Below are positions 3,561 to 44,746 of a stretch of DNA of 64,000 nucleotides, in pieces. Within the stretch, counting starts at the first letter, position 1; the number at the start of each line of letters is the position of its first letter. A model generated the notes under the pieces. It was not told the DNA's origin, ran no database searches, and saw only the letters and a list, made by a program, of their open reading frames with translations. Made by a program: the position numbers and the translations under genes. Origin of the DNA: Hymenobacter ginkgonis. GTDB taxonomy: Bacteria > Bacteroidota > Bacteroidia > Cytophagales > Hymenobacteraceae. The stretch covers positions 1,116,001 through 1,180,000 of the forward strand of contig NZ_WQKZ01000002.1 in assembly GCF_009755225.1 (NCBI RefSeq), written 5' to 3'.

Positions 3561-4955
3561 TTATTGGTCGGTGCTTGCCGTCAATATCTTGCACTGGGCA
3601 TATTCGGGGGCCACTTCGAGGTAGACGCTGGTGCGGTTCTGCTCGTACCACTCGTCTAGGGCACGGCTTTTCTTTTGCGTCAGTGCGGCCTGCGATATTT
3701 TCTGGTAGTCGTCGAGCAGGTTGGCCTGGTGAGGCGGCGTATTGCTCTTGAGGTATAGGATGCGCATGGCGTCCTTGCCATCGTCGGTGCGGTAGGGTAG
3801 GGGCGGGGTAATGTGGCCCACCTTCATGGTGTCGATGGTGAAGAAGATGGCCGGGTCGAGCTTATCGAGTGGCATGCGCGAGCCGCCATCTTGGCGGTTG
3901 GCAAGCAGGCCACCGTTGCCGCTGCTAGCTTTATCGGTGCTGAAATCCTTGGCGGCTTTCGCGAAGGAAATACTGTCTTTCAGAATCTGCGTGCGAATGC
4001 GCGCCAGCTTGATGGCGGCGCCGTTGGCATCGGCAGCGCCGGTAGCGGGCTTCAGCAGAATGTGGCGGGTAGAATACGAATCGCCCTTGCGCTCAATGAA
4101 TTGAATCAGGTGAAAGCCGAACTGCGATTCCACTACCGGCGACATTTGGCCGGGCTCTAGCTTGCGCGAGGCAGCTTCGTATTCGGGCACCAACTCACCC
4201 TTTTTGAAGAAGCCGAGGTAGCCGCCCTGCACCGCCGAGCCGGGGTCTTGCGAATACTGCTTGGCCAGGGTTTCAAAGCTTTCACCGGCCAAGACGCGTG
4301 CCCGCAAGTCGTTGAGCTGCGCGATGGCGGCCTGCTTGGCCTTGTCATTCACTTGCGCCGGAATGACAATCTGCCCAATTTCTACTTCCGTCGAGAAATA
4401 CGGGATGCTGTCCTTGGGCACTTTGTCGAAATACTCTTTTACCTCGCGGGGCGTCACGGTCACCTTGCCCGAGATTTTATCCTGCATTTCCTGCTGCACC
4501 AACTGGTCGCGAACCTGCGAGCGCAAGTCTTCCTTGAGTACCCGCAGCGGCTTGTTGTACATCTCCTCCAGCTTTTTTTCCGAGCCCACCTGCTGCACGA
4601 AGTAGTTCATGCGGCGGTCGAGCTCGCTGTTTACGCGGGCATCGGTCACGGTTACAGAGTCAACTTCGGCGCGGGCCAGCATCAGCTTATTAAGCACCAG
4701 GCTCTGCACTATCTTACAGCGCAGGTCGGGGGGTAGGCCCTTGCCTTGGGCACGGGCTTCTTCCTGCGCCACAATGCCCTCAATCTCCGAGCGTAGCACA
4801 ATCTGGTTGTCTACTTTCACGGCAATACCATCGAGCAACTGCTGCCCACGAGGACGCGTGATGCCCAACTGGGCCTGGCTGGTATGCGGCAGGGCCAGGG
4901 CCGTGCCTAAGGCGAATAGGAGGAGCGCCGACAAGCGCTGAGGTATAAACTGCAT
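3561..4955 (-). CDS. SurA-like periplasmic peptidyl-prolyl isomerase
   Basis: The protein has 464 residues with a signal peptide (about residues 1-29, ending SQAQ). An N-terminal SurA-type chaperone region contains IAVKVDNQIVLRSEIE and the helix with PPDLRCKIVQSLVLNKLM. Two parvulin domains follow: the first from about residue 190 (EIGQIVIP to FGFHLIQFIERK), the second from about 295 (STRHILLKP). It likely helps fold outer-membrane proteins in the periplasm. The ATG at 4955 places the signal peptide correctly; the open frame runs further upstream without a signal-like start. It is directly downstream of another parvulin gene, and the two probably form an operon. Confidence 0.9.
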   Translation of the reverse strand: MQFIPQRLSALLLFALGTALALPHTSQAQLGITRPRGQQLLDGIAVKVDNQIVLRSEIEGIVAQEEARAQGKGLPPDLRCKIVQSLVLNKLMLARAEVDSVTVTDARVNSELDRRMNYFVQQVGSEKKLEEMYNKPLRVLKEDLRSQVRDQLVQQEMQDKISGKVTVTPREVKEYFDKVPKDSIPYFSTEVEIGQIVIPAQVNDKAKQAAIAQLNDLRARVLAGESFETLAKQYSQDPGSAVQGGYLGFFKKGELVPEYEAASRKLEPGQMSPVVESQFGFHLIQFIERKGDSYSTRHILLKPATGAADANGAAIKLARIRTQILKDSISFAKAAKDFSTDKASSGNGGLLANRQDGGSRMPLDKLDPAIFFTIDTMKVGHITPPLPYRTDDGKDAMRILYLKSNTPPHQANLLDDYQKISQAALTQKKSRALDEWYEQNRTSVYLEVAPEYAQCKILTASTDQ

Positions 4956-5055
4956 AGGATAGGGAGTCGCGGAGAAGGCCAAGGGTTGCCGCCCACGGGG
5001 CGATAACGCAAAAAGAGAGGCAGAAAATTCGGTGCTAACGGCCAAAACCGCGCGC

Positions 5056-7440
5056 TTATTTTGTAATGAGCTTGCTTACTTCGGCGTCGTTCACCTGCAC
5101 CGGGTATTGCTGGCGCAGCTGCTCAATCCACTGTTTTTCGAGGTAGTTCTGGTAGTCGCTGGTGGCTTGGCCGCGGGCGTCGGTCAGCATTTTAGGACCG
5201 GCGGGCAAGTTTTGCTTCACCACTACGGCGTAGTAGCGGCCGTCGCGCTGGGTGGTGTAGGTGCCGGCTGGCCGGGTCAGGTAGTCGTCCATCACCTTGT
5301 TATCGCCCTTCTGGAAAGTGCGCTGCTGGATTTGTACCGCCAAGGGGTTTTGCTGGTTCAGTATGGCTTCGAGGGCCGCCGGCGAGTTGCTAAAGAACGC
5401 CAAGCGCGTATCGCCAGTAGCCGTAGTAGCGGCCGAAGCCGGCGCTAGCGTCAAGCGGCGGCGCTCAATTTTGCCAGCCTTAGCCAAATAGTCGATAGCT
5501 GCCGTGGCGCGCTGCCGAGCTAGTGCTGGGCTCTCGCCCTTGCGAATGTGGCCGGCTACCGTCACGGCCAGGGCCGTGTCCTGCGCCAGGCGGCGGGCGG
5601 CATCGTCGAGCACGGCCGAGCCACCAGCATTAGCCGGCGTAGCGGTGCCTGCTTTGAAATGCACCAAGGCCGAGCCCGCCTTGCCCGCTACGGCGTAGCG
5701 GCCAGCAGCCAGCTCGCGCTGCGCCCGAGCCAATAATTGGGGGGTAGCCGCCGAGATAACAGTGCCCCGGGCCCGCTGCCCAAACTGGTAGTTGGCCTGG
5801 TTGGCCATGAAAAACTTACGTAGCCCCGTCGTATCCTCAATGGCCTTGCTCCATACTTTCTCGTCCATCAGTTGGAAGAGCAGGATGCCGTCGCGGTATT
5901 CTTGTACGAGCATGCGGTAGTCTTCGTACTTGGTGGGCAAGCTGGCCTTCTCAAAATCGGTCAGGCTTTGGTCCACGTACTGGTCGTAGAGCTGCTGCAT
6001 GGCAAATGCCGGCTCGGCCGTGGGGCGCGGGCGCTGGTTTTGCTGCACGTAGGTCAGGAAGCTGCTAACGGGGTAGGGCTGGCCTTTAATGGTGAAAAGC
6101 GGCAGCTTGTCACCGCCCATTTTCTTGGTATTCTTCGACGCCTTAGCGCCGCTAGCCGTCATGGTAGCGGGGTTGAACTTGTAGCGGCCCTTCACCAACG
6201 CCGTATCGGCCTGGGCAAATGCCAGTGCCTTGGCGGCCGGAATCTCCACAAACTGGTCTTCCTGACGAATACGCTTCAGGAACGCGGCCCGGTTCAGCTC
6301 CGAGCGCGAGTCTTTGGCCACCTTGCTTTTCAGCGTGGGCTCTAGCGTAGCGAAGGGGGGTAGGGGCTGCTTCTCAATCAGCTTGATGATGTGCCAGCCA
6401 TAGGGCGTTTGCACCGGGGCCGAAATGTCGCCGGGCTTTTGCAGCTTGAAGGCCACTTCCTCGAACGACGGAATCATGCGGCCGGTGCTGAAGGGCGGCA
6501 GCTCGCCGCCGTTGGGGGCCGAGCCAGCATCTTCCGAAAACTGAGCTACTAGCTTGTTCCAGCTTTCGCCCTTACGCAAGCGGGCGTACAGCTCCGCAAT
6601 TTTCTTGTGAGCCGCCACCGAGTCGGCGCGGGGCGCCTGGGGCGTCACGCGCACCATGAGGTGAGCTACTTTGATTTCGCCCTGGGCCGCGCGGCGGTCA
6701 TTCACCTTGATGAGGTGGTAGCCGAAGCGCGTGCGAATAGGCTGGCTCACTTGGCCAACGGGCGTGAGGTAAGCGGCCGTTTCGAACGGATACACCATCT
6801 GCATAGCCGTGAAATAGCCGAGCTTACCCCCATTTTCTTGGGCCGAGGGGTCTTCGCTGGTGGTGCGGGCCACGGTGCCAAAATCCTCGCCGCCCGTTAC
6901 GCGCTGGCGCAGGGCCTGTACTTTCTGGTATGCGGCTAGCGTGTCGGCCGGGCTGGCATCGGGCGCTACGCGCACCAAGATGTGCGAGGCGTTTACCTCC
7001 TGGCCCATGCGCGCGTAAGCTTCGCGCACCAGTTGGTCGGTCACGCCCTTCTCGGTGAGATAGGGCTGGGCCAGCTGCTGCTTATAGCCGTCGAGCTCGC
7101 GCCGAAACGCCTGGGTAGTATCGAGGCCATGCTTCTCGGCATCGAGCACCTTGAGGCGGAAGTTGGTATAGAGCGTGAGGTACTCGTTCACACCGGCGCG
7201 GGTGCCGTAGTCGGCGGCCGTGGCGTTATTTTTCCGGTACACGTAGGCAAACTCACTGGCCGGCACTTGGTAAGTGCCCAGCGTTTCGAGGGCGGGGCCG
7301 CTGGCAACTGGGGTAGCCCCGGCAGCCAGGGCCGAACTCGCCGACGTAGTGGTAGTAGTGGGCTTGCTAGTCTGGCAGGCGGCCAGCTGCAACAAGGTGG
7401 CCGCGGCAGCAGCGCCGGCCAACGGGAGGCGTGAGTGCAT
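5056..7440 (-). CDS. Multi-domain parvulin-type peptidyl-prolyl isomerase lipoprotein
   Basis: This 794-residue protein begins with a lipoprotein signal (LLQLAAC, lipidated Cys near residue 22). Two parvulin domains follow: residues about 135-240 (NASHILVRVAPD to FGYHLIKVND) and 245-355 (IKVAHLMVRV to YGWHIIKLIEK). The remaining 430 residues resemble the C-terminal half of large PPIases. A stretch near residue 640 (VAGHIRKGE with ARQRATAAIDYLAKAG) recalls an OmpA-type peptidoglycan-binding fold, but this is only a resemblance. It is predicted to be a periplasmic, lipid-anchored folding factor for envelope proteins. The SurA-like gene follows about 100 bases downstream on the same strand. Confidence 0.88.
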   Translation of the reverse strand: MHSRLPLAGAAAAATLLQLAACQTSKPTTTTTSASSALAAGATPVASGPALETLGTYQVPASEFAYVYRKNNATAADYGTRAGVNEYLTLYTNFRLKVLDAEKHGLDTTQAFRRELDGYKQQLAQPYLTEKGVTDQLVREAYARMGQEVNASHILVRVAPDASPADTLAAYQKVQALRQRVTGGEDFGTVARTTSEDPSAQENGGKLGYFTAMQMVYPFETAAYLTPVGQVSQPIRTRFGYHLIKVNDRRAAQGEIKVAHLMVRVTPQAPRADSVAAHKKIAELYARLRKGESWNKLVAQFSEDAGSAPNGGELPPFSTGRMIPSFEEVAFKLQKPGDISAPVQTPYGWHIIKLIEKQPLPPFATLEPTLKSKVAKDSRSELNRAAFLKRIRQEDQFVEIPAAKALAFAQADTALVKGRYKFNPATMTASGAKASKNTKKMGGDKLPLFTIKGQPYPVSSFLTYVQQNQRPRPTAEPAFAMQQLYDQYVDQSLTDFEKASLPTKYEDYRMLVQEYRDGILLFQLMDEKVWSKAIEDTTGLRKFFMANQANYQFGQRARGTVISAATPQLLARAQRELAAGRYAVAGKAGSALVHFKAGTATPANAGGSAVLDDAARRLAQDTALAVTVAGHIRKGESPALARQRATAAIDYLAKAGKIERRRLTLAPASAATTATGDTRLAFFSNSPAALEAILNQQNPLAVQIQQRTFQKGDNKVMDDYLTRPAGTYTTQRDGRYYAVVVKQNLPAGPKMLTDARGQATSDYQNYLEKQWIEQLRQQYPVQVNDAEVSKLITK

Positions 7441-31995: not shown

Positions 31996-32946
31996 ATGCT
32001 CCTGCACGCCGAATGGACACCCTATATCAAACGGCGCGCCGCCGAGCTAGGCTTTATGGCCTGCGGCATTTCGAAGGCCGAGTTTTTGGAGGAAGAAGCC
32101 CCACGCCTCGAAAACTGGCTTAAGCGCGGCATGCACGGCAAAATGGCCTGGATGGAAAACCACTTCGACAAGCGCCTCGACCCGCGCCTGCTGGTGGACG
32201 GCGCCAAGTCGGTAATTTCGCTGCTGCTCAATTACTACCCCCCTGCCGAAGACCAGCAGCCGGATGATACGCTGAAAATCAGCAAGTACGCCTATGGGCG
32301 CGATTATCACTTCGTCATCAAAGACAAGCTTAAAACGCTACTGGCCGACATGCAGGCTAACATTGGCGAGGTAGGCGGGCGCTGCTTTGTCGATTCGGCG
32401 CCGGTGCTCGACAAGGCCTGGGCTAAAAAGGGAGGGGTAGGGTGGGTAGGAAAAAATTCCAACCTCATCACGCCCGGCGCGGGCTCGTTCTATTTTATCG
32501 CCGAGCTAATTGTGGACGTGGAGCTAGCGTACGACGGTGCCATCCGCGACTACTGCGGCACCTGCACCAAGTGCCTCGACGCCTGCCCCACGCAGGCCAT
32601 CACCGAGCCCTACGTGGTGGATGGCAGCAAGTGCATCAGCTACTTTACCATCGAGCTTAAGGACCAACTAATTCCGCAAAACGTGGCTGGGCAGTTTGGC
32701 AACTGGGTATTTGGCTGCGACATCTGCCAGGACGTATGCCCCTGGAACCGCTTCGCGAAGCCCACGCAAGAGACGCAGTTTCAGCCGCATCCAGAGCTGA
32801 AAAATTTGTCAGCCAGCGACTGGCAGGACATAACTCACGAGGTCTTTCAAGCGTTATTCAAACAGTCGGCCCTCAAGCGCACTGGCTACGAAGGCTTGAA
32901 GCGCAATATCAAATTCGTGACTGGCCAAAGCCAGCTCGGGAGCTAG
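31996..32946 (+). CDS. queG: Epoxyqueuosine reductase
   Basis: The 316-residue cobalamin and iron-sulfur protein carries out the last step of queuosine synthesis in tRNA. The N-terminal region ([24 protein letters not shown]), [26 protein letters not shown] and two ferredoxin-type clusters ([17 protein letters not shown] and [11 protein letters not shown]) match the family. Its length is normal. Its 3' end overlaps by a few bases a convergent small gene. Confidence 0.97.
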
Positions 32947-33208: not shown

Positions 33209-33235
33209 AAAAAAAGCGGCTGAGGCCGCTTTTTA
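33209..33235 (-). terminator. Terminator of ferritin-like pair 1
   Basis: On the minus strand an AAAAAGCGGCC-type stem (AGCGGC with GCCGCT) is followed by seven T, directly after the end of gene A1. Confidence 0.85.
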
Positions 33236-33257: not shown

Positions 33258-34127
33258 CTAGGCGCTAAAGATATTCAGCAGGCTTATTGCATCTTGCGTA
33301 ACCATAGGCTCGTCGAAGGCCTCAGCAATGGCAGTCGATTGCACGATGTAAGTGCCAATAAGCAGCGCCGTAAACGGCACTTGGCGGTAGCCCGATAGAA
33401 ATTGCTGCTCGGTGGCCTCGCCCGAATACACAGTACCCGTGCTGGCAGGGGTAGTGGCCTGCGTGGTAAACTGCACAGGGTAAGTGGGCACCAGGTCGGC
33501 CGCGCTGGGCCAGCCTTTTACCTGAGCCCCGCGGCGGCGGCGTAGCGTGCGCAAGTGCGCCGCGTGGCGGCTCTCGACGGTGGCTAGGCGCTGCACGCCG
33601 CCCAGCAAAGGCCGGTCGGCGGTGAGCAAGGAAAGTTGGCCGAGGTAGATGCGCACACCAGCATCTTCGAGCTGCTGGGCTAGCTCCAAGAAGCCAGCTT
33701 CCGTCGTCAAGGCATTGGGAAACAAGATGCTGCCCGTGCGGCTGCCGCTGAAGTTATATGTCGCGGCGGGGGTAGGGGGCGTCACGCCCGAGTTGAGCAG
33801 GGCTTGATTTAAGAAATCGATGTGCTGCTGCTGTTGGCTTTGCAGGCGCACCACATCGTCGCGTAAGCTGCCGCTTAAGCCTAGCGCGGTAGAAGCCAGG
33901 GCCTGGGTATAAAACGCGCGTTGCGTGTACTCTAAGCGCAGCAATAGGGCCAGTTGGTCGAGGCTGGCCAGCGTGCTGGCGGCGGCCGGGGCTGTGCTCA
34001 GCACGCCCAGCGGCAGTGCGGCGGCGGCCGCCCGCCCCAGCTGGTGCAGCAGCGCGCGGCGGGGCGCCGGCCCCGCCTGGGCCGTGTCGACCGAAGCTAA
34101 ATAATCGAACAGGGAAAAGACGTTCAT
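33258..34127 (-). CDS. Ferritin-like protein A1 (diverged member)
   Basis: The 289-residue protein has the A-family layout: a short N-terminus with PRRALLHQLG, a hydrophobic stretch, then a four-helix ferritin-like (PF13668-type) domain. Helix 1 keeps E (LLLRLEYTQRAFY), but the usual ExxH in helix 2 is QQQQH, losing the Glu ligand. Helices 3 and 4 keep LEDAGVRIY and TVESRHAAHLR. It is the last gene of the array, read just after B1. Probable location is the periplasm. Function is unknown; loss of a ligand suggests a changed or lost metal site. Confidence 0.8.
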   Translation of the reverse strand: MNVFSLFDYLASVDTAQAGPAPRRALLHQLGRAAAAALPLGVLSTAPAAASTLASLDQLALLLRLEYTQRAFYTQALASTALGLSGSLRDDVVRLQSQQQQHIDFLNQALLNSGVTPPTPAATYNFSGSRTGSILFPNALTTEAGFLELAQQLEDAGVRIYLGQLSLLTADRPLLGGVQRLATVESRHAAHLRTLRRRRGAQVKGWPSAADLVPTYPVQFTTQATTPASTGTVYSGEATEQQFLSGYRQVPFTALLIGTYIVQSTAIAEAFDEPMVTQDAISLLNIFSA

Positions 34128-34154
34128 AACGGGTAGCTATACAGCCTAAGGAAG

Positions 34155-34847
34155 CTACGCAATGGGTAGCAGCGATACATCAATGACAGCCAGCGTGATA
34201 TAAGGCGTAATAGCCTTGAGCACATCGGCGGGGGTAGCAATGTTGGCTAGTGGGCCGCCGCTAGTGAGCACCGCATCGGGGGCGGCCAGCGTGGTGGGAG
34301 CGAGCAAGTCGCGCACCGTGGCGGCGTGCCGGGCTTCTACCGAAGCAATCTTGAGCATAAACCGGAGCGTGTCGGCCGTAGTCAGGAACGGCACGCTGAA
34401 CGTGAGCGCCGCTGAGCACAAATCCTCGAATGTTTGGGCTGCCGCCAGCACGCCGGCCCGCGTGGTGAGGGGTAGGGTACTAAAGTCGAAGATGAGCTGT
34501 GGCAGGGCCGCCGTAGCCCCCAGCGCGTAGCCCAGGCTAAGCTGCTGCACAATTTCGTGGTCGCGCAGGTCTGTTACGGTAAGCAGGTCGGCGCCCGTCA
34601 GGTCGGCGGGCACGGTGGCCGTCACCTTCTGGTAAAACGCCACTTGCAGCTGCTTCAGCAGGTAGAAATAATTGAGTTGGCCGGTGTCGTCGTTGGTGAG
34701 CGCGTAGGTCGGCGTGGTAGTGGTGGGCTCGGGGTCATTGGCCGAGCAGCCCGCCAGCGCCAAGCCAGCGGTGGCCGTAGCGCTGCCCGCTACCCGCAAA
34801 AAAGTGCGCCGACGCAGCGTGCGCGAAGCCCAGGAAGATAAATGCAT
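34155..34847 (-). CDS. Ferritin-like lipoprotein B1 (diverged member)
   Basis: The 230-residue protein starts with a Tat-type signal (RRRTFLRVAGSA) and a lipobox LALAGC. Its helix 1 reads LKQLQVAFY where the other B proteins have LEQLE, so both acidic residues are lost. Helix 2 reads HEIVQQ in place of HExIH, losing the His. Helix 3 keeps FEDL but lacks the Tyr, and helix 4 keeps SVEARHAATVRDL. It likely cannot bind a standard di-iron centre. It has its own promoter box at 34894-34901 and is followed 27 bases later by A1. Confidence 0.82.
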   Translation of the reverse strand: MHLSSWASRTLRRRTFLRVAGSATATAGLALAGCSANDPEPTTTTPTYALTNDDTGQLNYFYLLKQLQVAFYQKVTATVPADLTGADLLTVTDLRDHEIVQQLSLGYALGATAALPQLIFDFSTLPLTTRAGVLAAAQTFEDLCSAALTFSVPFLTTADTLRFMLKIASVEARHAATVRDLLAPTTLAAPDAVLTSGGPLANIATPADVLKAITPYITLAVIDVSLLPIA

Positions 34848-34893
34848 AAGTCTGAGGCGACAAAAAGTAAAGTAGCCGCGGTAGGAGGGATAG

Positions 34894-34901
34894 CAAAGTT
34901 A
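34894..34901 (-). promoter_or_regulatory. Promoter -7 box of pair 1
   Basis: On the minus strand TAACTTTG matches TAnnTTTG, about 46 bases before the B1 start. Confidence 0.65.
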
Positions 34902-34980
34902 CACCCGCCGCGGGGGCCACCGGGGTAACAGCCGGAGCCTTGCCCGCCCCCGCTAGGTTGCAAGCGCTGGCCCAGGGCCG

Positions 34981-35913
34981 CTACACGAATAAACCCTTGA
35001 GGTTGCCGCTGGCCACAAAGTTGAGGGCAATGGCTTTCACCTTGGCCGGGTCCAGGGGCTCATCAAAGGCCTCGGTGGCGGCGATGGAGGTGAGCACCAG
35101 CCCAGCGCCGGGCGACGACGAGTTGCTTTGGGTATTGATGCCGACCTGCACTGTATTATCTTCGGCGGGGTAGGCAGTGGTGGTACCAGCGCCGTACACG
35201 CTAGCGGTGAGGGCCGGCAGCGGGCCATTATTGTCGCGCTGCGATATCCAGCTCTTGGGCTTGGTAGCCAAGGTATTGGCTGAAGGCGCATCGGCGGCTG
35301 CTGTGACGCCCCCGCGCCGCAGCGTGCGGATGTGCGACGAGTGCCGCGCTTCTACCGAATGGATATTGAAGGCCGCCGTCAACAGGTCTTTGTTGTTTAT
35401 CAGCGCAGGGATAGCGCCTTTGTAGGCCCGCACGCCGGTGTCTTCAAAAGCCTGGGCCAACGCCAAAAAGTTGGTCGAGCTAGCAAAAGGCGTCAGGCGG
35501 TTGGCACCGGCCGTGTAGTCGAAGGCAGCGGCAGTAGGGTCGGCGATGGCGGCGCTGCCTAGCACGGCGCGCAGGGCGTTCACGTGTCCACGCTCATCGT
35601 CGCGGATGGCTGTGAAAGCCACATTGTCGCTGCTCGATAAGATATTGGCGTTGAGGCCCGCTTGGTAATAATACAGCTCCAGGTACTCCAGGCTCAACGC
35701 CAAGTTGAGGACTGCTTGCACATCGGCCGTGATGGCAGTCGTTTGCCCGTAGGCTTTCTGAAAAAGCCCGCTGAGAAGCGTCGGTAGCGTAGCCGCGGTG
35801 ATGGCTTTACCGGTGCTGCCTAAGTACTTAAACACCCGGCGGCGCGAGTCGAAGCGGCCATATACTTCGGGGTCAACGCGCTCCAAGTCAGAAAAAAGCT
35901 GAAAAATATTCAT
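34981..35913 (-). CDS. Ferritin-like protein A2
   Basis: The 310-residue protein begins MNIFQLFSDLERVDPEVYGR, then SRRRVFKYLG (twin-Arg motif) and a hydrophobic segment ending KAYGQT. The ferritin-like domain shows four ligand helices: LSLEYLELYYY, RDDERGHVNAL, AFEDTGVRAYKG and HSVEARHSSHIRTLRR. The C-terminus after about residue 215 contains LKPKSWISQRDNNGP-type and FDEPLDPAKV segments shared with A3 and A4. It follows B2 by 40 bases. All four E/ExxH positions are kept, so a di-metal site is likely. No terminator is obvious after this gene. Confidence 0.88.
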   Translation of the reverse strand: MNIFQLFSDLERVDPEVYGRFDSRRRVFKYLGSTGKAITAATLPTLLSGLFQKAYGQTTAITADVQAVLNLALSLEYLELYYYQAGLNANILSSSDNVAFTAIRDDERGHVNALRAVLGSAAIADPTAAAFDYTAGANRLTPFASSTNFLALAQAFEDTGVRAYKGAIPALINNKDLLTAAFNIHSVEARHSSHIRTLRRGGVTAAADAPSANTLATKPKSWISQRDNNGPLPALTASVYGAGTTTAYPAEDNTVQVGINTQSNSSSPGAGLVLTSIAATEAFDEPLDPAKVKAIALNFVASGNLKGLFV

Positions 35914-35953
35914 GTAGCTAAAAAATCACGGGGTAGGAAGAACGAGCCAGCGG

Positions 35954-36736
35954 CTAAACCAGGCTGGGGGCGGTGAGCTGCGAGCCGGTGGCCAGGTAGG
36001 CATTCACCTTGGGTAGCACCGCGGCGGGTAGCAGCGATTTTTCCATGCGGGCCGTGGCGCTGGTGGTGCTGCTGTCTATCACGTCGGCACCAACGAACCC
36101 ATTGCCGAGGCTGCTGGCACCGCCGGCTACCAGAATATCGCGAAGCAGGGCAGCGTGGCGTGCCTCTACCGACACAATTTTGCCGGCCAGCCCGAGGTAA
36201 TCGACGTTGCTGAAAAAGCGGGCGGCTCCGTTGTAGGCAGCCACCCCCAGGTCTTCAAACATCTGGGCGGCATTGAGCACCCCCATTTTGTCGGCGCCCG
36301 TCACCGTGGTGCGGTCGCTGAAGCTAATAGTCGAAAAATCGAAGGAAAGCGCCTTGATGGGCGTACTGTTAGCAGTCAGTGCCGTGCGAAGCAAATCGAC
36401 GTGGATTTTTTCGTGCAGCGCCAAATCACTCAGCAGCTGGTACTCGGCCGAGCCCACAGCCAGCGAGGTGAAGTAGGCCCCAGCCAGTACCTGGGTGTAA
36501 AACGCTGATTCGAGTTGCTCCAAAGCATAAGCGTAGTTGAGCACGCCTACATCGCCGCTGCCTACATCGAGCAGCGCCGTGGTGGTATCATCCTTTTTGC
36601 AGCTAGCGAGCGTGAGAGCCGTAGCGCCCGCAGTGGCGCCGGCGTATTTAATAAACGAGCGCCGCTTGATGGGCGCCAGCAGCGGCGACGAACCGGGGGT
36701 AGGAGCGGAAGCGCCGGCTGAACGGGAAAAGGACAT
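35954..36736 (-). CDS. Ferritin-like lipoprotein B2
   Basis: The 260-residue protein has an N-terminal Tat motif KRRSFIKYAG with lipobox LTLASC. The ferritin-like helices read YALEQLESAFY, LALHEKIHVDLL, MFEDLGVAAYNGA and VSVEARHAALLRDI, so all ligand positions are kept. The ATG at 36736 is chosen because the frame further upstream runs through the terminator of pair 3 and is not signal-like. It is predicted to be exported folded by the Tat system and lipid-anchored. A2 follows as its partner. Confidence 0.88.
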   Translation of the reverse strand: MSFSRSAGASAPTPGSSPLLAPIKRRSFIKYAGATAGATALTLASCKKDDTTTALLDVGSGDVGVLNYAYALEQLESAFYTQVLAGAYFTSLAVGSAEYQLLSDLALHEKIHVDLLRTALTANSTPIKALSFDFSTISFSDRTTVTGADKMGVLNAAQMFEDLGVAAYNGAARFFSNVDYLGLAGKIVSVEARHAALLRDILVAGGASSLGNGFVGADVIDSSTTSATARMEKSLLPAAVLPKVNAYLATGSQLTAPSLV

Positions 36737-36801
36737 AGCAACCAGAATAAGAGAAAGTAGCTGGGCAGCAAGGACAATACTTACTGTCCTTAAATTCCTA
36801 G

Positions 36802-36809
36802 CAAAGTTG
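36802..36809 (-). promoter_or_regulatory. Probable -7 box of pair 2
   Basis: On the minus strand CAACTTTG differs at one position from TAnnTTTG and closely resembles the TAACTTTG of pair 1. An inverted repeat (AGGACA/TGTCCT) lies between it and the B2 start at about 36771-36790, which could be an operator. Confidence 0.45.
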
Positions 36810-36813
36810 GCAC

Positions 36814-36848
36814 AAAAAAAGGACCGACCCGCAAAGGTCAGTCCTTTA
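36814..36848 (-). terminator. Terminator of ferritin-like pair 3
   Basis: On the minus strand a GGACTGACC/GGTCGGTCC-type stem is followed by seven T, about 60 bases after A3. Confidence 0.85.
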
Positions 36849-36905
36849 TTCAATTCAGCTGCGGCCAGGGTTGGCCGTGGGCCAGGTGGCGCAGCACGGT
36901 AACTA

Positions 36906-37964
36906 CTAACCGAAGAACGTGCTGCCCGTGACAGCGAAGGTCTTGGCAATCGTCAGAACCGTTGGCACGTCAAGCGGCTCGTCGAAGGCTTCCGAGTACG
37001 ACAGCGTAGGGAAGTTAGCGGTGGCCGTCAGCGTGGTAGCCGATAGCGTTACGCCACCCTGAATAACGTTGTTCTCGGCTGGGAATACCGGAGCGGAGAG
37101 CGTAGTAGGCGTGTAGGCTGGAGCCGTGCCAGCGCCATATACCGGCGCCGTTACAGCTGGAGCCGGACCACCATTGTCGTTACCCGAAATCCAGCTTTTT
37201 GGAGAAGCCGAACGGTCAGCTTCGTTAGTACCGCTGTTAGTAGGGGCCACAGCCGAAGCAGTGTTGTTGGCAGCACCGGCGCGGCGCATGGTGCGCAAAC
37301 GCGAGGCGTGACGAGCTTCTACCGAGTGAATGTTGAGCGCAGCCGTGAGCACGTCCTTGTTCGACATCAGGTAAGGAGCACCGCCTTTGTAAGCACGTAC
37401 ACCCGTGTCTTCCAAGGCCTGAGCTACGGCCAGGAAAGTAGCTGGCGTAGTAAAAATGCCCGCGAACGGACCAGTACCAGTGCCCTTGCCGCCGGTGAAG
37501 TCGAAGTCGCCGGTTACGCCCAAGGCGTTCGGCGTGCGGTTCGGAGCGGCGATGGGCGTGCCGCCCAAAGCGGTGATGGTAGCAATCAGAGCCGAAACGT
37601 GGTTTGACTCATCCAGGCGGATGATGTCGAGCGATGCCAGGTTAGTGGTGCTGAAGCCGCTGCGGAAAGTGGTTTGGGCAGCCGTAGCCGTAGCGCCGAT
37701 GGTGCCCAGGCCGAGGTTGTAAAACGTCGACTCCAGGTATTCGAGGCGCAGGGCAAAGTTCAGCACGTCAACTACGCCAGGAGCGGCTGTAGTTTGAGCA
37801 TAAGCTTTATTCAAAACAGCACCGAAAGCCAATGGCACGGCAGCCGCCGTCAGCTTCTGGCCCAGGCCGCTCATGTGCTTGAAGATGGAGCGACGCGAAT
37901 CGAGGCGGTCGTAAACCTCGGGGTCTACCTTCTCGATTTCGGAGATAATTTCAAAGATATTCAT
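36906..37964 (-). CDS. Ferritin-like protein A3
   Basis: The 352-residue protein is the longest A member. It starts MNIFEIISEIEKVDPEVYDR, then SRRSIFKHMSG and a hydrophobic segment ending KAYAQT. Helices read LRLEYLESTFYN, RLDESNHVSAL, ALEDTGVRAYKGG and HSVEARHASRLRTMRR; all E and H ligands are kept. The C-terminal third contains SPKSWISGNDNGGPAP and SEAFDEPLDVPT. It follows B3 by 45 bases and ends 60 bases before a terminator. Probably a periplasmic ferritin-like protein exported by Tat. Confidence 0.88.
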   Translation of the reverse strand: MNIFEIISEIEKVDPEVYDRLDSRRSIFKHMSGLGQKLTAAAVPLAFGAVLNKAYAQTTAAPGVVDVLNFALRLEYLESTFYNLGLGTIGATATAAQTTFRSGFSTTNLASLDIIRLDESNHVSALIATITALGGTPIAAPNRTPNALGVTGDFDFTGGKGTGTGPFAGIFTTPATFLAVAQALEDTGVRAYKGGAPYLMSNKDVLTAALNIHSVEARHASRLRTMRRAGAANNTASAVAPTNSGTNEADRSASPKSWISGNDNGGPAPAVTAPVYGAGTAPAYTPTTLSAPVFPAENNVIQGGVTLSATTLTATANFPTLSYSEAFDEPLDVPTVLTIAKTFAVTGSTFFG

Positions 37965-38009
37965 GATATAGACGGAGTTGGAATGAGGGAAAAGCCGGAG
38001 CCGGCTATT

Positions 38010-38741
38010 TTATTGAATGCCGGAAACATCAAGCTTCGAACCATCGGCCAAGAAAGTGTTGGCCGTGGCCACTACCGTCGCAGGGTCTTTCGAAATTTCC
38101 GTGCTAGTCGTGCCAATGGCTACTACGTCGCTGCCCACGAACGTGCCTTCCGACACCAAGTCGCGAATGATAGCCGCGTGGCGAGCTTCCACCGACACAA
38201 TTTTACCGGCAATAACCAAGTAGTTAGCCGACGTGATGCGGCGGCCAGCACCATTGTAAGCAGCTACGCCGAGGTCTTCGAAAGCCTTGGCCGTGCCCAG
38301 TACCGACGTACGCGACGTGAAGTCGATTTTCGAGAAATCAGGCGTCAGCGCCTTAATGGGGGTAGCACCAGCACCCGTGATAGCTGCTTTGAAGAACTCG
38401 CGGTGAATTACTTCGTGGTAGTACAGGTCGTCTAGAATCAGCTTTTCGGCATTGCCAGCGGCCAGGCCAGTGTAGTACGAACCCGTACGCAACTGCGTGT
38501 AGAAACCGGCTTCGAGCTGCTCAAGCGCATAAGCGTAGTTGAGCACACCTACGTCGCCGCTACCTACGCTTACCATGCCCGGTGACGAGTCGCTTTTGCT
38601 GCAACCAGCTAGTACCAAGGCAGTAGCCCCGGCCGTAGCGCCAGCATACATGAAGAATGAGCGGCGCTTGATGGGCGTGTACAGCGGCTGGTCCAGGTCA
38701 GTCTCGACCTGCTGTGAGCCAGAGAGGAGTTTGTTAGACAT
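38010..38741 (-). CDS. Ferritin-like lipoprotein B3
   Basis: The 243-residue protein has KRRSFFMYAGATAG and lipobox LVLAGC. Ferritin-like helices: YALEQLEAGFYTQL, LYYHEVIHREFF, AFEDLGVAAYNGAG and VSVEARHAAIIRDL. Ligands are complete. The start region on the minus strand is pyrimidine-rich, without a clear Shine-Dalgarno sequence, as is common in Bacteroidota. Its promoter box is at 38794-38801. It is most similar in its N-terminal region to B4. Confidence 0.9.
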   Translation of the reverse strand: MSNKLLSGSQQVETDLDQPLYTPIKRRSFFMYAGATAGATALVLAGCSKSDSSPGMVSVGSGDVGVLNYAYALEQLEAGFYTQLRTGSYYTGLAAGNAEKLILDDLYYHEVIHREFFKAAITGAGATPIKALTPDFSKIDFTSRTSVLGTAKAFEDLGVAAYNGAGRRITSANYLVIAGKIVSVEARHAAIIRDLVSEGTFVGSDVVAIGTTSTEISKDPATVVATANTFLADGSKLDVSGIQ

Positions 38742-39099
38742 AAGGGAAAAGAAAAGGAAAAAGAGGAAATAGAGAAAATGGCCTAAAAGAAATCAAAAAT
38801 ATACTAACTTACTAAGCAGTAGATTTTCATAATTCTAGGTGTCGAGGCTACTTATGGTGGCGCTTTACGCTACTTGCCCAAACTAGTTGTTGGGCTTCTA
38901 TGCTCACCTACGTAGCCTAGCAAGCACTCAGATTGGTCAGCGAAGTAATTATTCTAGTTTGCGCGAGTCGGGTTACCCGATGGGGGTAGGATAAAATATG
39001 CGCAGTGAGGAGGTTACCTTATTGGCTGGGGGTATGCTCGTGTGGGTACTTAACTCGCCAAAAAGCTCATCAGACAAAGCAACTTTATTTTAAAAACAC
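38742..39099. other. Intergenic region upstream of pair 3
   Basis: No gene is supported here. The stretch holds the pair 3 promoter box at 38794-38801 and an AT-rich segment. Plus-strand reading frames of up to 65 codons look like chance. The terminator of pair 4 follows at 39100. Confidence 0.5.
38794..38801 (-). promoter_or_regulatory. Promoter -7 box of pair 3
   Basis: On the minus strand TATTTTTG matches TAnnTTTG, about 53 bases before the B3 start. Confidence 0.6.
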
Positions 39100-39134
39100 A
39101 AAAAAGCCGCTCCTACAAAGAAGCGGCTTTTTTT
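39100..39134 (-). terminator. Terminator of ferritin-like pair 4
   Basis: AAGCCGCT/AGCGGCTT stem with T runs on both sides, about 30 bases after A4. Confidence 0.88.
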
Positions 39135-39161
39135 GTAACCTAAGAAAAAACCGGTTATTGC

Positions 39162-40163
39162 CTATACGAACAGGCCTTTTGCCTTGCCAGCAGTCGAAGT
39201 GAACATCGAAGCAATGCTCTTGACGGTAGCGGGGTCTAGCGGCTCATCGAATGCCTCCGATATTGCCGCGGCCGTGTAGGTGCTTCCAAGCGTAGTGAGG
39301 TTCACGCCGGCTTGCGAAGTGTTGTCTTCGCCGGGGTACGAGGCATCTGGCGTGCCGGTAGCGGGCGTGCCAGGGCCATATACTTTGCTGGCTGGCTTGC
39401 TACCATCTGGCGCGGTAGGGCCACCGTTGTCAACGAGGCTAATCCAGCTTTTGGGGGCGGCATCGTAAGGAGATACTGCTGGCGCACCGGCCGAGCCAAG
39501 TGCGTTGGCCACGATGGCGCGTCGCACCGTACGGAAGTGCGAGTTGTGGCGTGCCTCTACCGAGTGAATGTTGAGCGCGGCCTCCAAAATGTCTTTGGTA
39601 GCCGTTGTGTTCAGCACGGGAGCACCGCCTTTGTAGGCGCGTTGGCCGGTGTCGGAGAAAGCTTGGCCAGCGGCGAAGAACAAGGCGCCGTTGGTGTTGC
39701 CAGTCGAACCTGGTATCAGGGCGTTTTTCATGGGGCCGTTGCCCGTACCGCTACCACCCGAATAGTCGAAGTCGGTAACCAAATAGGGGGTAGGCGCTGC
39801 CGTGCCCAGTACCGCACGCAGCGCATTGATATGCCCAGCTTCGTCGTTGCGGATAGTGGTAATGGCCGCAGTTTCTTGCGACGGAATCAATCCTGCAATT
39901 CCTAGCGCAGTATTATAGAAGTGATATTCTAAGTACTCTAGCTGCAAAGCCAGTGTGAGTACGGCCTGCACAGGCGCAGTCAGCGTAGCGCTTTGGCCAT
40001 AAGCGCGGTTGAAGAACGACGCCAGCACAGCGGGTACGGCGGCAGTAGTTATTTTTTGGCCTGCATTACCCAAGTATTTAAATACCCGGCGGCGGGGGTT
40101 AATACGGTCGAGAAACTCGGCGTCGGCTTTCTCTAGGTCAGAGAGAAGTTGAAAAAAATCCAT
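39162..40163 (-). CDS. Ferritin-like protein A4
   Basis: The 333-residue protein starts MDFFQLLSDLEKADAEFLDR, then PRRRVFKYLGN and a hydrophobic segment ending RAYGQS. Helices read LQLEYLEYHFYN, RNDEAGHINAL, AFSDTGQRAYKGG and HSVEARHNSHFRTVRR. In helix 3 the usual Glu of FEDTG is Ser (FSDTG), so one ligand of the expected set may be missing. The C-terminal part has APKSWISLVDNGGP and SEAFDEPLDPATV. It follows B4 by 39 bases. Confidence 0.88.
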   Translation of the reverse strand: MDFFQLLSDLEKADAEFLDRINPRRRVFKYLGNAGQKITTAAVPAVLASFFNRAYGQSATLTAPVQAVLTLALQLEYLEYHFYNTALGIAGLIPSQETAAITTIRNDEAGHINALRAVLGTAAPTPYLVTDFDYSGGSGTGNGPMKNALIPGSTGNTNGALFFAAGQAFSDTGQRAYKGGAPVLNTTATKDILEAALNIHSVEARHNSHFRTVRRAIVANALGSAGAPAVSPYDAAPKSWISLVDNGGPTAPDGSKPASKVYGPGTPATGTPDASYPGEDNTSQAGVNLTTLGSTYTAAAISEAFDEPLDPATVKSIASMFTSTAGKAKGLFV

Positions 40164-40202
40164 GACAAGGCAAATATTAAATGGTGAATGACAACACGGC
40201 TA

Positions 40203-41021
40203 CTAAGCGAAGCTGTTGGCCGAGAGCTTAGAGCCGCTAGCCAAGAAGTTGTTGACCGCTTGCAGAATAACTGGCGGCCGCTTCGAGCGCTCTTGGCCGG
40301 GGCCAGGGTTGCCATTGCCTTGCGTGTTGGGGGTAGTATTAGGAGTGCCTTCGCCTGCGTATTGTCCGGCAACTGCCGGGGCCGATGGGGTGAACGTGTT
40401 CACGACATCGCTGGCTACGAAGGTGTTGTAGGTGCGCAGGTCACGGATAAGCGCCGCGTGGCGGGCTTCCACCGATACAATTTTACCGGCTAGGGCCAAG
40501 TAAGCGTTGCCAGATATAAAGCGGCCGGCGCCATTGTAGGCGGCTACCCCAGTGTCTTCAAACGTCTGAGCAGCATTCAAAACGCTGGTGCGGTCGTTGA
40601 AATTAATGGTACTGAAATCTGGAGTCAGGTCTTTCAGCGGGGTAATGCTGTTGGCTAGCAACGCGGCTTTCAAAAAGTCGCGGTGAATGCCTTCGTGCAA
40701 AGCGAGGTCGTCAAAAATTTGTTTCTCGGCGCTGCCCGTAGCCAAGCCAGTGTAGTACGTGCCCGTCTTAATTTGCGCGTAGAAAGCGGCCTCAAGCTGC
40801 TCTAGGGCGTAGGCGTAGTTGAGGATACCACCATCGCCCGAACCTACATCTATCGTGCCGGGTGATGAATCACTCTTGCTGCAACCAGCTAATACCAAGG
40901 CGGTAGCTCCGGCCGTAGCGCCGGCATACATAAAAAACGAGCGTCGTTTGATGGGCGTCAAAAGCGGCCGGTCGAGGTCGGCCTCAAGCGGCTGCGAACC
41001 AGAGGAGAGATGATTGGACAT
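40203..41021 (-). CDS. Ferritin-like lipoprotein B4
   Basis: The 272-residue protein shares KRRSFFMYAGATAG and LVLAGCSKSDSSPG with B3, pointing to a recent common origin. Helices: YALEQLEAAFYAQI, LALHEGIHRDFL, TFEDTGVAAYNGAG and VSVEARHAALIRDL; ligands complete. Relative to B3 it carries an extra low-complexity stretch near the C-terminus (GEGTPNTTPNTQGNGNPGPG). No convincing -7 box was found upstream. A4 follows as its partner. Confidence 0.9.
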   Translation of the reverse strand: MSNHLSSGSQPLEADLDRPLLTPIKRRSFFMYAGATAGATALVLAGCSKSDSSPGTIDVGSGDGGILNYAYALEQLEAAFYAQIKTGTYYTGLATGSAEKQIFDDLALHEGIHRDFLKAALLANSITPLKDLTPDFSTINFNDRTSVLNAAQTFEDTGVAAYNGAGRFISGNAYLALAGKIVSVEARHAALIRDLRTYNTFVASDVVNTFTPSAPAVAGQYAGEGTPNTTPNTQGNGNPGPGQERSKRPPVILQAVNNFLASGSKLSANSFA

Positions 41022-41222
41022 GATAAAAAAAGGAAAGAGGAAAAGGAAATGGGCGTGGCAACGGGTAAGCTGCGCCGTTCCGCGCCGCTGTATGCCCTCT
41101 ACGCTGAGTTAGCTCAACGGATGCCTAAAAAAGGAAAAAATCATTCAACCTGGTATCAGTAGCCCGTAGTTTACTACTTGATTTTAAATTATTAAGTTGG
41201 TTTATTGCTAAAGATGGAATGC

Positions 41223-41258
41223 AAAAAAAAGAGCTACCGGTTAGGTAGCTCTTTTTTT
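41223..41258 (-). terminator. Terminator of ferritin-like pair 5
   Basis: AAAAAAGAGCTACC/GGTAGCTCTTTTTTT stem with a short loop, 45 bases after A5. Confidence 0.9.
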
Positions 41259-41302
41259 GATAAAGCGGAAGAAAGCAATCGTAGTAAACAGTAGGGTAGC
41301 AA

Positions 41303-42130
41303 TTATTGGATTAAACCGCCAGCCCGGGAGGCGTCGAGCACTTCGGCCGGCGTGAGGGCTTCGTCGAAAGCGGCGGCTACATCGGCGGCGCTGTACGTGG
41401 CTGCCAGCTTGGTAGGGAGGTCCACATTCGATTGAATAGTGGTAGCCTCGGGCGTAGCACCCGAGTACGTAGCGTTAGCAGCCAGGTCGTCGGAGTTGCT
41501 CACCCAAGGTGTTTGGCCGCGCAGCAGGCGGATGTGGGCGGCGTGGCGCGCCTCCACCGAGTGGATTTGGAGCGCCGTAGTGAGCAAGCTCACTTGCGTA
41601 GAGGAGGGCAGGCCGTTGCTAGCGCCCACCACCAACTCGGCGGCGCGGCCCTTGTAGGCGCGCACGCCGGTGTCTTCGAGCAGTTGCGCTACCCCCAGCA
41701 GGCCGGCGTAGGTTTTGTTGGCATCAAATACCGATTGCTTGAATTGCACCATTGCGCGGGGCGTGCCGCCGAGCGTCGTAATCACGCCTTTTAGCAGGTT
41801 TACGTGGCCGTCCTCGTGCTGCTTTATCTTAGCCATGGCCGTGGCGGGCGCACCCGCGGGCACTAGGCCCGAGGCAATAAATTTGGCGTAAAAATCTTGC
41901 TCCAGGTATTCGAGAGCCAGGGCATAGTTGAGAATGTCGATAGGCGTATCGGCATTGGTGCCGGCGTAGGCCTTCTTAAAAAGCCCACCCACCAGCAGGG
42001 GGGTAGCCGCCAGGGCCGCGCGCCGAGCTGCACTGCCCAAGTGCTTAAACACCGCGCGGCGCGAGTCGAAACGGCCCAGTACGTCGGGGTCGGCGGTAGC
42101 CAGCTGGTCTAGAATAGCAAAGAAATTCAT
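41303..42130 (-). CDS. Ferritin-like protein A5
   Basis: The 275-residue protein is the shortest A member. It starts MNFFAILDQLATADPDVLGR, then SRRAVFKHLGSAARR and a hydrophobic segment ending KAYAGT. Helices read LALEYLEQDFYAK, KQHEDGHVNLL, LLEDTGVRAYKGR and HSVEARHAAHIRLLRG; ligands complete. The C-terminal part is trimmed but keeps AAFDEALTPAEV, matching FDEPLDPA of other members. It follows B5 by 35 bases. Confidence 0.88.
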   Translation of the reverse strand: MNFFAILDQLATADPDVLGRFDSRRAVFKHLGSAARRAALAATPLLVGGLFKKAYAGTNADTPIDILNYALALEYLEQDFYAKFIASGLVPAGAPATAMAKIKQHEDGHVNLLKGVITTLGGTPRAMVQFKQSVFDANKTYAGLLGVAQLLEDTGVRAYKGRAAELVVGASNGLPSSTQVSLLTTALQIHSVEARHAAHIRLLRGQTPWVSNSDDLAANATYSGATPEATTIQSNVDLPTKLAATYSAADVAAAFDEALTPAEVLDASRAGGLIQ

Positions 42131-42165
42131 GGCGATAAATCAGATGAAAGACTAGTAGAAATGGC

Positions 42166-42903
42166 TTAGCTAAGCTGGCTGGCGTCGAGGGTTTGGGTGA
42201 CGTACTTCTGCACGGCGGCCACCAGGGCGGCCGGCTTCAGGGGGTTGCGGTCGAGGCCCGAGGTAGGCTCTGTCACGGCGTCGCCGGCAAAGAAATTGGT
42301 GGCATCGCCGGGGTATAATAAGTCGCGCAGGTAGGCCGCGTGGCGGGCTTCTACCGACACGATTTTGCCGGCCAGCACCAAATACGCCGGGTTTTTGATG
42401 AGCGCCCCGGCCCCGTTGTAAGCCTGCACGCCTAAATCTTCAAATGCCACGGCGGCGGCCAGCACGCTGGCGCGTTTGGTAAAGTCGATAGACGAGAAGT
42501 TGACCGTCAGGTCCTGGATTAGCTGGCCCGGTGCGTCGCGGTTGATGGCCGCCTTAAAGAAGTCGCGGTGAATGGCCTCGTGGGTCGCTATTTGGGTGAA
42601 GTAAGCCAGCTCGCCGGTTTGAAAATCGGTGGCGGGAGTCTTTACCACTTGCGCGTAAAAAGCCGCTTCTAGCTGCTCCAAGGCGTAGGCATAGTTGAGC
42701 ACGCCCACATCGCCGGCCGCAAATACCACCGTGTTGGAGGGGGTAGGGGTGGCATCATCTTTTTTGCAGCCCGCCAGCACTAGGGCCGTAGCGCCAGCCG
42801 TGGCCCCGGCATATTTGAGGAAAGAGCGCCGCTGTAGCGGCTGCCGCAGCACCGGCTCGTCGGGGATAAGGGGGGTAGGGCTGGTGGCAAAAGCAGCGGC
42901 CAT
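42166..42903 (-). CDS. Ferritin-like lipoprotein B5
   Basis: The 245-residue protein has QRRSFLKYAGATAG, the closest to the Tat consensus in the set, and lipobox LVLAGC. Helices: YALEQLEAAFYAQV, IATHEAIHRDFF, AFEDLGVQAYNGAG and VSVEARHAAYLRDL; ligands complete. The ATG at 42903 is chosen over an upstream TTG-type start at 42933. Its -7 box is at 42962-42969, directly beside the terminator of a possible small RNA. It heads the most upstream unit of the array. Confidence 0.88.
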   Translation of the reverse strand: MAAAFATSPTPLIPDEPVLRQPLQRRSFLKYAGATAGATALVLAGCKKDDATPTPSNTVVFAAGDVGVLNYAYALEQLEAAFYAQVVKTPATDFQTGELAYFTQIATHEAIHRDFFKAAINRDAPGQLIQDLTVNFSSIDFTKRASVLAAAVAFEDLGVQAYNGAGALIKNPAYLVLAGKIVSVEARHAAYLRDLLYPGDATNFFAGDAVTEPTSGLDRNPLKPAALVAAVQKYVTQTLDASQLS

Positions 42904-42961: not shown

Positions 42962-42969
42962 CAAAACTA
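42962..42969 (-). promoter_or_regulatory. Possible -7 box of pair 5
   Basis: On the minus strand TAGTTTTG matches TAnnTTTG, placed right at the T run of the hairpin at 42970-43001. It is about 60 bases before the B5 start. A -33 element would fall inside the hairpin. Confidence 0.45.
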
Positions 42970-43216: not shown

Positions 43217-44746
43217 GTGCGCACGCGTAGTTTTTTGAGTGCAGGAAAACGGAGCGGCTGGCTGCTGGTGCTGTGGCTGCTGGGCAGCTTGGCCCTGCGT
43301 GCCCAGCCGGCGCCGGCGCCTAGCACTGGCCCTGGTACGGCCGTGCTAGTGCCCCCGCCCACGGCCGTGCCGTTGGTGGGGCCGTTCACGCTGGCGTTTC
43401 GGCTGAGCGGGGTGGCACTGGTGGGGCAGCCCGAATTTCCAGAACTAGAGGGCTTTCGCAAAGGAGGGCAGGCGCGCACTACCACTACCCGCCTGCTGCC
43501 CGGCGGCCGCCGCACCACCGAGCTTACCTTCACGCAGCGCTACCTGCCCTACGCCGAAGGGGATTACCAGGTGCCGCCCTTCGACCTCACCGTGAACGGG
43601 CAGGTGCTACACAGCCCCGGGGGCCGGGTGCGCGTGGGCGCGGGCCCTACCCCCCCCGCCACGGCCGGGGCCGCCATGCCACCGGGCACGGCCGTCGGCT
43701 CGCTCGACCAACTGCTGGGCAAGCCTAAGCCCCAGAACTTCTACGAGCCGCCCGACTTTGCCTCGCTGGCCTTGGAGGCCGACCAGCCGCGGGTGTACAT
43801 GGGCCAGGGCGTACACGTGGCCTTGTACTTTTACCTGCGGCCTGCCGACCAAGCGCTGCTCAATTTCTATGACTTCAACGGCCAGCTGACCGAGCTGTTG
43901 CGGCAGCTGCGGCAGCCTACTACGTGGGAGGTGCCCGCCGTGCAGCCCTCCGTGCTGCCCGACACTGTGCGCCGGGCGGGCGGGCAGGTGTACCTGCGTT
44001 TTCGGCTGGCCGAAAACACCTATTACCCCCTCACGGCGCAGCCGCTGCGCTTCCCAGCGCTGGCCCTAACCCTGACCAAGTTTAAGCTGCTTAAAAAGCC
44101 GCAGCCCGGTGATACCGAGCGCTTAGCCATCTACAAAACCTACACGGCGCCGGCCCTTACCATTGCCGTGCGCCCGCTGCCGCCCCGCCCTGGCGGAGCC
44201 GATAGCAGCAGCGTGGCCGTGGGCGACTACGTGCTGAGCGAGGGCATCAGCGGCACGCGCTTCCGCACGGGCGAGGCTTTCACCTACACATTTGGGGTAG
44301 AGGGCAGCGGCAATATGGCGGCGTTGCAGCTGCCGCTGCCCCGCCTACGCCCTGGCCAGGGCCTAGAGATATACGGTCCCACCATTCGGGAGGAAGCCCT
44401 GCCCGATGGCCGCCAACGCAAGAGCTTCCGCTTTCGGGTGGTGGCGCACCGGCCCGGCCCGGTGCCACTCGACAGCCTGTTTCACCTGCTTTTTTTCAAC
44501 CCTACCACGGCCCACTACGGCACCCTGCGGGCCGAAGTGAACCCATTCGTGGAGGGTGCCGCGCAAGCCCTGGCCACCGGCGCGCAGCCCGCCGACGACC
44601 CGTTTTACGGCCCCGCCCTGGCCCGCGCCGATGCCCAGCTGCAACCCCTCGACATCTACCAGCAGGTGAGCCGCTACGCCAGTTGGCTGGTGGCGGGCCT
44701 GCTTGTGGTAGCTACCGGCGGCTGGTGGCGGGCCAGGCGGGGCTAG
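43217..44746 (+). CDS. BatD-like protein
   Basis: The 509-residue protein starts at GTG and has a signal peptide ([16 protein letters not shown]). The segments [73 protein letters not shown] and [19 protein letters not shown] match the BatD (oxygen tolerance) family of beta-sandwich periplasmic proteins. A C-terminal membrane helix ([15 protein letters not shown]) anchors it. In Bacteroidota BatD usually sits with batA, batB and moxR, but here it stands alone, with moxR 40 kb away. GTG is the first plausible start in front of the signal peptide. Confidence 0.82.

Follow-up and report, generated by a model that had tools for sequence, protein, structure and literature searches.

Tandem pairs of putatively exported Ferritin_2 genes in Hymenobacter ginkgonis and the conservation of the pair across Bacteroidota

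INTRODUCTION

In bacteria, plants and tardigrades alike, Ferritin_2 proteins (Pfam PF13668) have been tied to the survival of drying. The tardigrade protein RvFeMP-1 is a metal-dependent metabolite phosphatase (PDB 8KCE, 8WAI and 8W9K; PMC11616004). DRB0118 of Deinococcus radiodurans, a clade 2 Ferritin_2 protein, is likewise a phosphatase, and both proteins are dimers (PMC11616004); a DRB0118 mutant is desiccation-sensitive (PMC1978522). Here we describe a 64,000-nt stretch of Hymenobacter ginkgonis DNA (the window, to whose whole length all coordinates refer) in which ten minus-strand Ferritin_2 genes lie in a row at 33258-42903. When the open reading frames (ORFs) are read, these genes alternate strictly between A, encoding a predicted lipoprotein of the twin-arginine translocation (Tat) pathway, and B, encoding a larger partner that is also predicted to be Tat-exported. 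Pairs are numbered 1-5 from 42903 downwards.

The alternation of lipoprotein and partner genes, with gaps of 27-45 bases within a pair, had been described in an earlier note on this DNA and is reproduced here (A-to-B gaps of 35, 39, 45, 40 and 27 bases for pairs 1-5). New beyond that note are the phylum-wide occurrence of the unit, the age and order of the isoforms, the conserved genomic site, the separate terminators, the eroding last pair and the phosphatase relatives. A literature search, with most subscription journals outside its coverage, found no description of the A-B pair or of the array.

RESULTS

A conserved two-gene unit

All ten proteins score 72-130 bits against PF13668, where the Pfam cut-off is 24.7, which bears out the family assignment of the earlier note, and these ten are exactly the PF13668 matches of the whole genome. 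For the same proteins NCBIfam offered no named model except a Tat signal.

A profile built from the B proteins alone was used to fetch loci from named Bacteroidota genomes. All of the fetched loci (79/79), drawn from Hymenobacteraceae, Chitinophagaceae, Sphingobacteriaceae, Spirosomataceae and Cytophagaceae, have an A gene immediately upstream of B in the same orientation. In a sample spread evenly over the phylum, 33 of 296 genomes had B, nearly always with an adjacent A match, and within the genus Hymenobacter the PF13668 count is even in 107 of 120 genomes and equals twice the B count in 105 of them. Since A stands upstream of B at every one of the 79 loci and the counts are so regularly even, the pairing is far beyond chance. 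Judged by gene order and gene counts, A-then-B is a conserved two-gene unit, phylum-wide and not peculiar to H. ginkgonis. The unit also occurs beyond the phylum: on plasmids of Mesorhizobium and Methylobacterium radiotolerans an A orthologue is followed by a B orthologue.

History of the array

Separate A and B trees, called for by the earlier note, agree far beyond what shuffling within genomes produces. For 90 pairs the two trees have 44 of 87 splits in common, against at most two in 500 label shuffles, and the A and B distances correlate with r=0.82, while shuffling partners within genomes reached at most 0.69 (n=1000). From this congruence of trees and distances it follows that entire pairs were the unit of duplication. 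In a tree built from 189 pairs, each concatenated, pairs 2 and 4 fall together in lineage II, and lineages I, III and V hold pairs 1, 3 and 5, respectively; each of these lineages is shared with other Hymenobacter genomes. On this tree the five pairs are four old paralogous lineages whose duplications mostly predate the species. The proposal that repeated duplication of whole pairs built the array is thus upheld by tree congruence as regards the unit that was copied, but not as mainly recent local copying, the four lineages being genus-wide.

The site itself is conserved. In about 20 fetched Hymenobacteraceae genomes the pairs stand between a BatD-like gene (here 43217-44746, plus strand) and a queG-like gene (31996-32946, plus strand), both named by eye, and genomes with one pair, such as Adhaeribacter, have it at the same site. 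Farther out lie what we take to be, from the sequence and without a family search, a chorismate-synthase-like gene beyond the BatD-like gene and a ruvB-like gene beyond the queG-like one. Among the loci compared, H. ginkgonis has the longest array at this site; another genome likewise has ten genes, yet only three pairs here. A search of the inter-gene gaps of the array for leftovers of additional pairs gave none that was convincing.

Genes of the array and their metal sites

The gaps between successive pairs are 281, 420, 169 and 133 bases. In pair 1, A1 (42166-42903) has the seven ligand positions intact as EEEHEEH, and B1 (41303-42130) is intact as well. In pair 2, A2 (40203-41021) is intact, and its partner B2 (39162-40163) has Ser for the helix-3 metal Glu, as part of a wider change among lineage II B proteins, in which this Glu is replaced by Val or Ser in 22 of 28. 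Both members of pair 3 (A3, 38010-38741; B3, 36906-37964) and of pair 4 (A4, 35954-36736; B4, 34981-35913) are intact. In the last pair the site is eroded on both sides. A5 (34155-34847) reads KQEQEEH, having lost both helix-1 Glu (to Lys and Gln) and the helix-2 His (to Gln), and B5 (33258-34127) reads EQQHEEH, with Gln in place of the second Glu of helix 1 and also of the Glu of helix 2. The claim that both families carry E, ExxH, E, ExxH helices therefore holds for A1-A4, B1, B3 and B4, fails for A5 and B5, and is partly right for B2. We place the start codons of A1 and A4 at the ATGs at 42903 and 36736; for these two genes the ORF list has starts farther upstream, which were set mechanically.

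When one helix-1 Glu is counted, the intact set comprises four Glu and two His. In the B family a further His, invariant and absent from A, precedes the Glu of helix 4 by three residues (HxxExxH; residue 213 of B3). Together with an invariant C-terminal FDE in B, it may mark a B-specific function.

Long pyrimidine runs (CCTTTTTCCTTTTC...) lie on the minus strand just 5′ of the start codons of A3 (38742-38785) and A2 (41022-41060).

The last pair and lineage V

Wherever a lineage V pair was found (22/22), it was the last, queG-side pair of its array. The A ligand positions are intact in 12 of these 22 pairs and in 165 of the 167 A proteins elsewhere, so that loss stands at 10/22 against 2/167 (Fisher 3e-9, a test that ignores relatedness). 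The lineage V genes that lose ligands have ratios of nonsynonymous to synonymous substitution rates (dN/dS) of ~0.05-0.24 between related genomes by the Nei-Gojobori method (NG86), values that are only approximate because dS is near or above 1. With these ratios and open frames, plain pseudogenes were ruled out as a general account of the lineage. As an exception, the third and last pair of Hymenobacter lapidarius (3825-5524 of its locus) is split over several frames, A and B alike, and is probably broken. Pair 5 of H. ginkgonis is losing its metal site and yet stays constrained, so its role in this species is probably that of a partner that is altered or no longer catalytic.

Export signals and predicted location

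The twin-arginine (RR) motifs and the LAGC/LASC lipoboxes reported earlier are both present, the former in all ten proteins and the latter in the A proteins. The genome encodes one TatC. The TAT_signal model PF10518 scored above its cut-off in A1 and A4 only. The B N-terminus is conserved as MNxFxIIxEIEKVDPEVYxRLDxRRxxFK and is followed by a hydrophobic segment that ends mostly in AYA or AYG; the AYxQT ending that had been ascribed to the family is found in B3 and B4, and not in B2 (AYGQS) or B1 (AYAGT), and it is absent from B5. At its C-terminus B has a conserved motif, EAFDEPL.

After the lipobox, A proteins of the family have on average 2.85 acidic residues among the five at +2 to +6, where the acidic background is 10%. 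Lipoproteins of Capnocytophaga are best directed to the surface by the signal C-x-K-(D/E)2, for which SDDDD has been proposed as the Bacteroides equivalent (PMC5080379). A1 and A4 (CKKDD) fit the former exactly; A2 and A3 (CSKSD) and A5 (CSAND) fit it less well. From these signals A is predicted to be an outer-membrane lipoprotein, which the export signal of Bacteroidota lipoproteins probably directs to the surface.

Transcription units

Intrinsic terminators follow B in 128 of the 189 pairs, as against four of 189 for A. In the array they were found on the minus strand after B1 (41224-41258, z -6.9), B2 (39097-39137, z -6.5), B3 (36818-36847, z -5.6) and B5 (33211-33234, z -3.4), and the scan found none after any A and none after B4. 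The Bacteroidota-type -7 box TAnnTTTG precedes A in 24 of 186 cases, in a narrow cluster at about -62, and precedes B in two of 178, against a background of 4%; in the window, minus-strand matches to this motif precede A1 (42962-42969), A3 (38794-38801) and A5 (34894-34901). It is thus most likely that each pair is transcribed as a separate unit. With no terminator between them, pairs 4 and 5 may lie on a shared transcript. A scan for the sigma-70 consensus was uninformative (four found, 3.7 expected), and a search of the array for structured RNA gave two Rfam matches, both on the B2 terminator hairpin and below gathering scores.

Predicted structure

Structure prediction covered A3 and B3. 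AlphaFold2 gives A3 as a confident four-helix bundle (mean predicted local distance difference test score, pLDDT, 85.7) and B3 as a confident four-helix core with an uncertain C-terminal part (whole mean pLDDT 76.1). For both models the top Foldseek match is RvY_06210/RvFeMP-1, significant for A and with E ~0.002 for B, and it is followed by Dps-like proteins, bacterioferritins and ferritins. RvFeMP-1 is also the sole significant sequence relative in the PDB. The ferritin fold, which had been named as a test, is supported for A3 and B3 by these models and their matches.

Variants of the pair and neighbouring genes

Breaks in the A-B alternation are rare; in one locus (L057; G057:C1:24000-43999) an orphan A stands at 5240-6004 among four pairs. 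Pairs can reside on plasmids. One of these (L045; G118:C6, 9105-10672) has a B frame that ends early and is annotated as two pieces, and a 158-kb plasmid of Hymenobacter sp. YIM 151858-1 (L173, 3200-4906) carries an intact pair beside umuD and a Y-family polymerase gene. Plasmid pACIX903 of Granulicella tundricola (L169, 3989-5833) has two adjoining Ferritin_2 genes, neither clearly A nor B, with annotated spore photoproduct lyase and DNA ligase genes beside them, and a Haladaptatus plasmid has a single B-like gene. A phage origin was rejected, there being 0 A matches in 50,697 phage records.

Among 125 neighbouring genes outside Hymenobacteraceae the commonest families were thioredoxin-like (six), RskA anti-sigma (RskA_C, five) and sigma-70 region 4 (four). 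Some single pairs of Chitinophagaceae (L157, L159, L140 and others) lie near a sigma factor of the extracytoplasmic function (ECF) type or an RskA-type anti-sigma factor, a weak hint of regulation. Papers on the alphaproteobacterial general stress response discuss Dps-type proteins, and no discussion of Ferritin_2 was found in them.

DISCUSSION

We tentatively read the array as encoding a di-metal enzyme that is exported, consists of two subunits of which A is the outer-membrane anchor, and protects in drying or oxidative stress; taken whole, we hold this to be possible rather than probable. Each A-B pair would be transcribed as one unit and yield an exported di-metal protein of the Ferritin_2 family with two subunits. 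Both subunits would be folded and loaded with metal in the cytoplasm before export, which would account for the use of Tat, and A, in the outer membrane and probably at the surface, would hold B or work with it. Of these parts the physical partnership of A and B is quite probable. The Glu, ExxH, Glu, ExxH centre would then perform metal-dependent chemistry beyond the inner membrane and so protect the drying or oxidatively stressed cell. Whole-pair duplications at the one conserved site, mostly before the species arose, would have enlarged the array and yielded its isoforms. For the chemistry, hydrolysis of phosphorylated metabolites, for example nucleotides and sugar phosphates around stressed cells, is the candidate that we cautiously favour, because the only family biochemistry at hand is that of RvFeMP-1 and DRB0118. 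An unlikely, bolder version would make the enzyme an obligate assembly of a lipid-anchored surface subunit and a soluble subunit, produced from an ordered array of isoforms whose last unit, by then a pseudoenzyme pair that lacks metal and is kept by selection, modulates the active ones or serves as their scaffold.

Several points weigh against the enzyme proposal. The published activities are, according to their authors, 1-2 orders of magnitude under those of known metabolite phosphatases (PMC11616004). Asp135, essential in RvFeMP-1, is Gly in nearly all A and B proteins, though DRB0118, which is active, also has Gly there. The six-ligand set is identical to that of redox di-metal proteins, and the co-inheritance of A and B is also explicable by co-regulation. 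The export signals are weak in A2, A3 and A5, and that of B is of an unusual Tat type with a conserved long n-region. Outside Hymenobacteraceae no gene family accounts for more than six of the 125 neighbours, and none points to a pathway.

The strongest alternative, in our view rather unlikely, is redox chemistry by an extracytoplasmic di-iron or di-manganese protein, Mn-catalase-like or ferroxidase-like, that shields the envelope from oxidants during drying and ultraviolet (UV) exposure. Glu, ExxH, Glu, ExxH is the classical di-iron/di-manganese ligand set, and since the intact set in A and B equals it, such chemistry has to be reckoned with. The Foldseek matches that come after RvFeMP-1 point the same way, as does a Hymenobacter isolate that is reported to accumulate Mn and Fe and to resist UV (PMC4751316). 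However, the sole measured PF13668 activity is that of a phosphatase (PMC11616004), genes for haem or respiratory partners are missing from the neighbourhoods, and neither ferritin nor Mn catalase came up by sequence in the PDB search; for the latter, the window proteins gave no PDB sequence match up to E=1 and no Pfam match. The earlier suggestion of a role in metal or oxidant handling or desiccation tolerance was loose in this respect: genetic support for its desiccation part comes only from the distant homologue DRB0118, and the closest solved relative is a metallophosphatase, though A and B themselves have the di-iron/di-manganese type of ligand set.

A and B could instead be co-regulated, independent enzymes that form no complex, A at the membrane or surface and B in the periplasm. 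Their anchoring and C-termini do differ, and an operon alone also predicts co-inheritance. The invariable order of A before B (79/79) and the congruence of the trees within genomes speak for a tight partnership, though not for contact as such, and we regard full independence as unlikely. More doubtful still is a non-catalytic protectant or metal store, in which an abundant, stable helical protein would buffer metals or shield the envelope, with copy number serving dosage. The presence of several isoforms at one site, the retention of lineage V despite its ligand loss and the link of homologues to desiccation would all suit such a protein. Dosage or shielding would not need the ligands that 165 of 167 A proteins outside lineage V have kept, and the isoforms are old and diverged, not identical copies. 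A recent local amplification in H. ginkgonis, which the adjacency and single orientation of the genes might suggest, is very improbable and is refuted for most pairs, since in both trees the window pairs group with those of other species and not with each other, only pairs 2 and 4 being of one lineage.

For the proposed two-subunit enzyme, deletion could be tested cleanly in species that have one pair only, as many Chitinophaga and Mucilaginibacter do, and lineage V offers pairs naturally without metal as ready-made controls.

Comparison with known systems

Mn catalases, ferritins, bacterioferritins and Dps proteins have the fold of A and B, and their di-metal members have a set of the E, ExxH, E, ExxH type; they differ in showing no significant PDB sequence match to A or B, and the export signals are on the A and B side. 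Ferritins, bacterioferritins and Dps proteins form cages of 12 or 24 subunits; the Ferritin_2 relatives RvFeMP-1 and DRB0118 are dimers (PMC11616004). Like the array, pcC13-62 of resurrection plants and Rds1 of fission yeast are Ferritin_2 proteins, and both are stress-regulated (PMC11616004), whereas they are eukaryotic, encoded by single genes and altered at the second metal site. The plasmid genes of Mesorhizobium and M. radiotolerans (L171 and L172) resemble the array in having A (272-292 bits) and then B (203 bits), and depart from it in an A without lipobox, one pair per place and a short B C-terminus.

The closest solved structure is that of RvFeMP-1, which like A and B is a PF13668 four-helix bundle. 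The alignment matches its Glu51, Glu90, His93 and Glu132 to the Glu, ExxH and Glu ligands in A and B, and sets its helix-4 Asp162 against the Glu of their second ExxH. Unlike them it is a single protein with an immunoglobulin G (IgG)-like domain and is no Tat lipoprotein, and it is reported to be cytoplasmic in human cells (PMC11616004). By its published description, DRB0118 is like A and B in having PF13668 without an extra domain, Gly at position 135 and an N-terminal secretion signal, but it is treated there as a protein on its own, not as half of an A-B pair, and is a self-dimer in solution (PMC11616004). With two paralogues always present as a unit in Bacteroidota and in some Alphaproteobacteria, assays of single proteins may there test half an enzyme.

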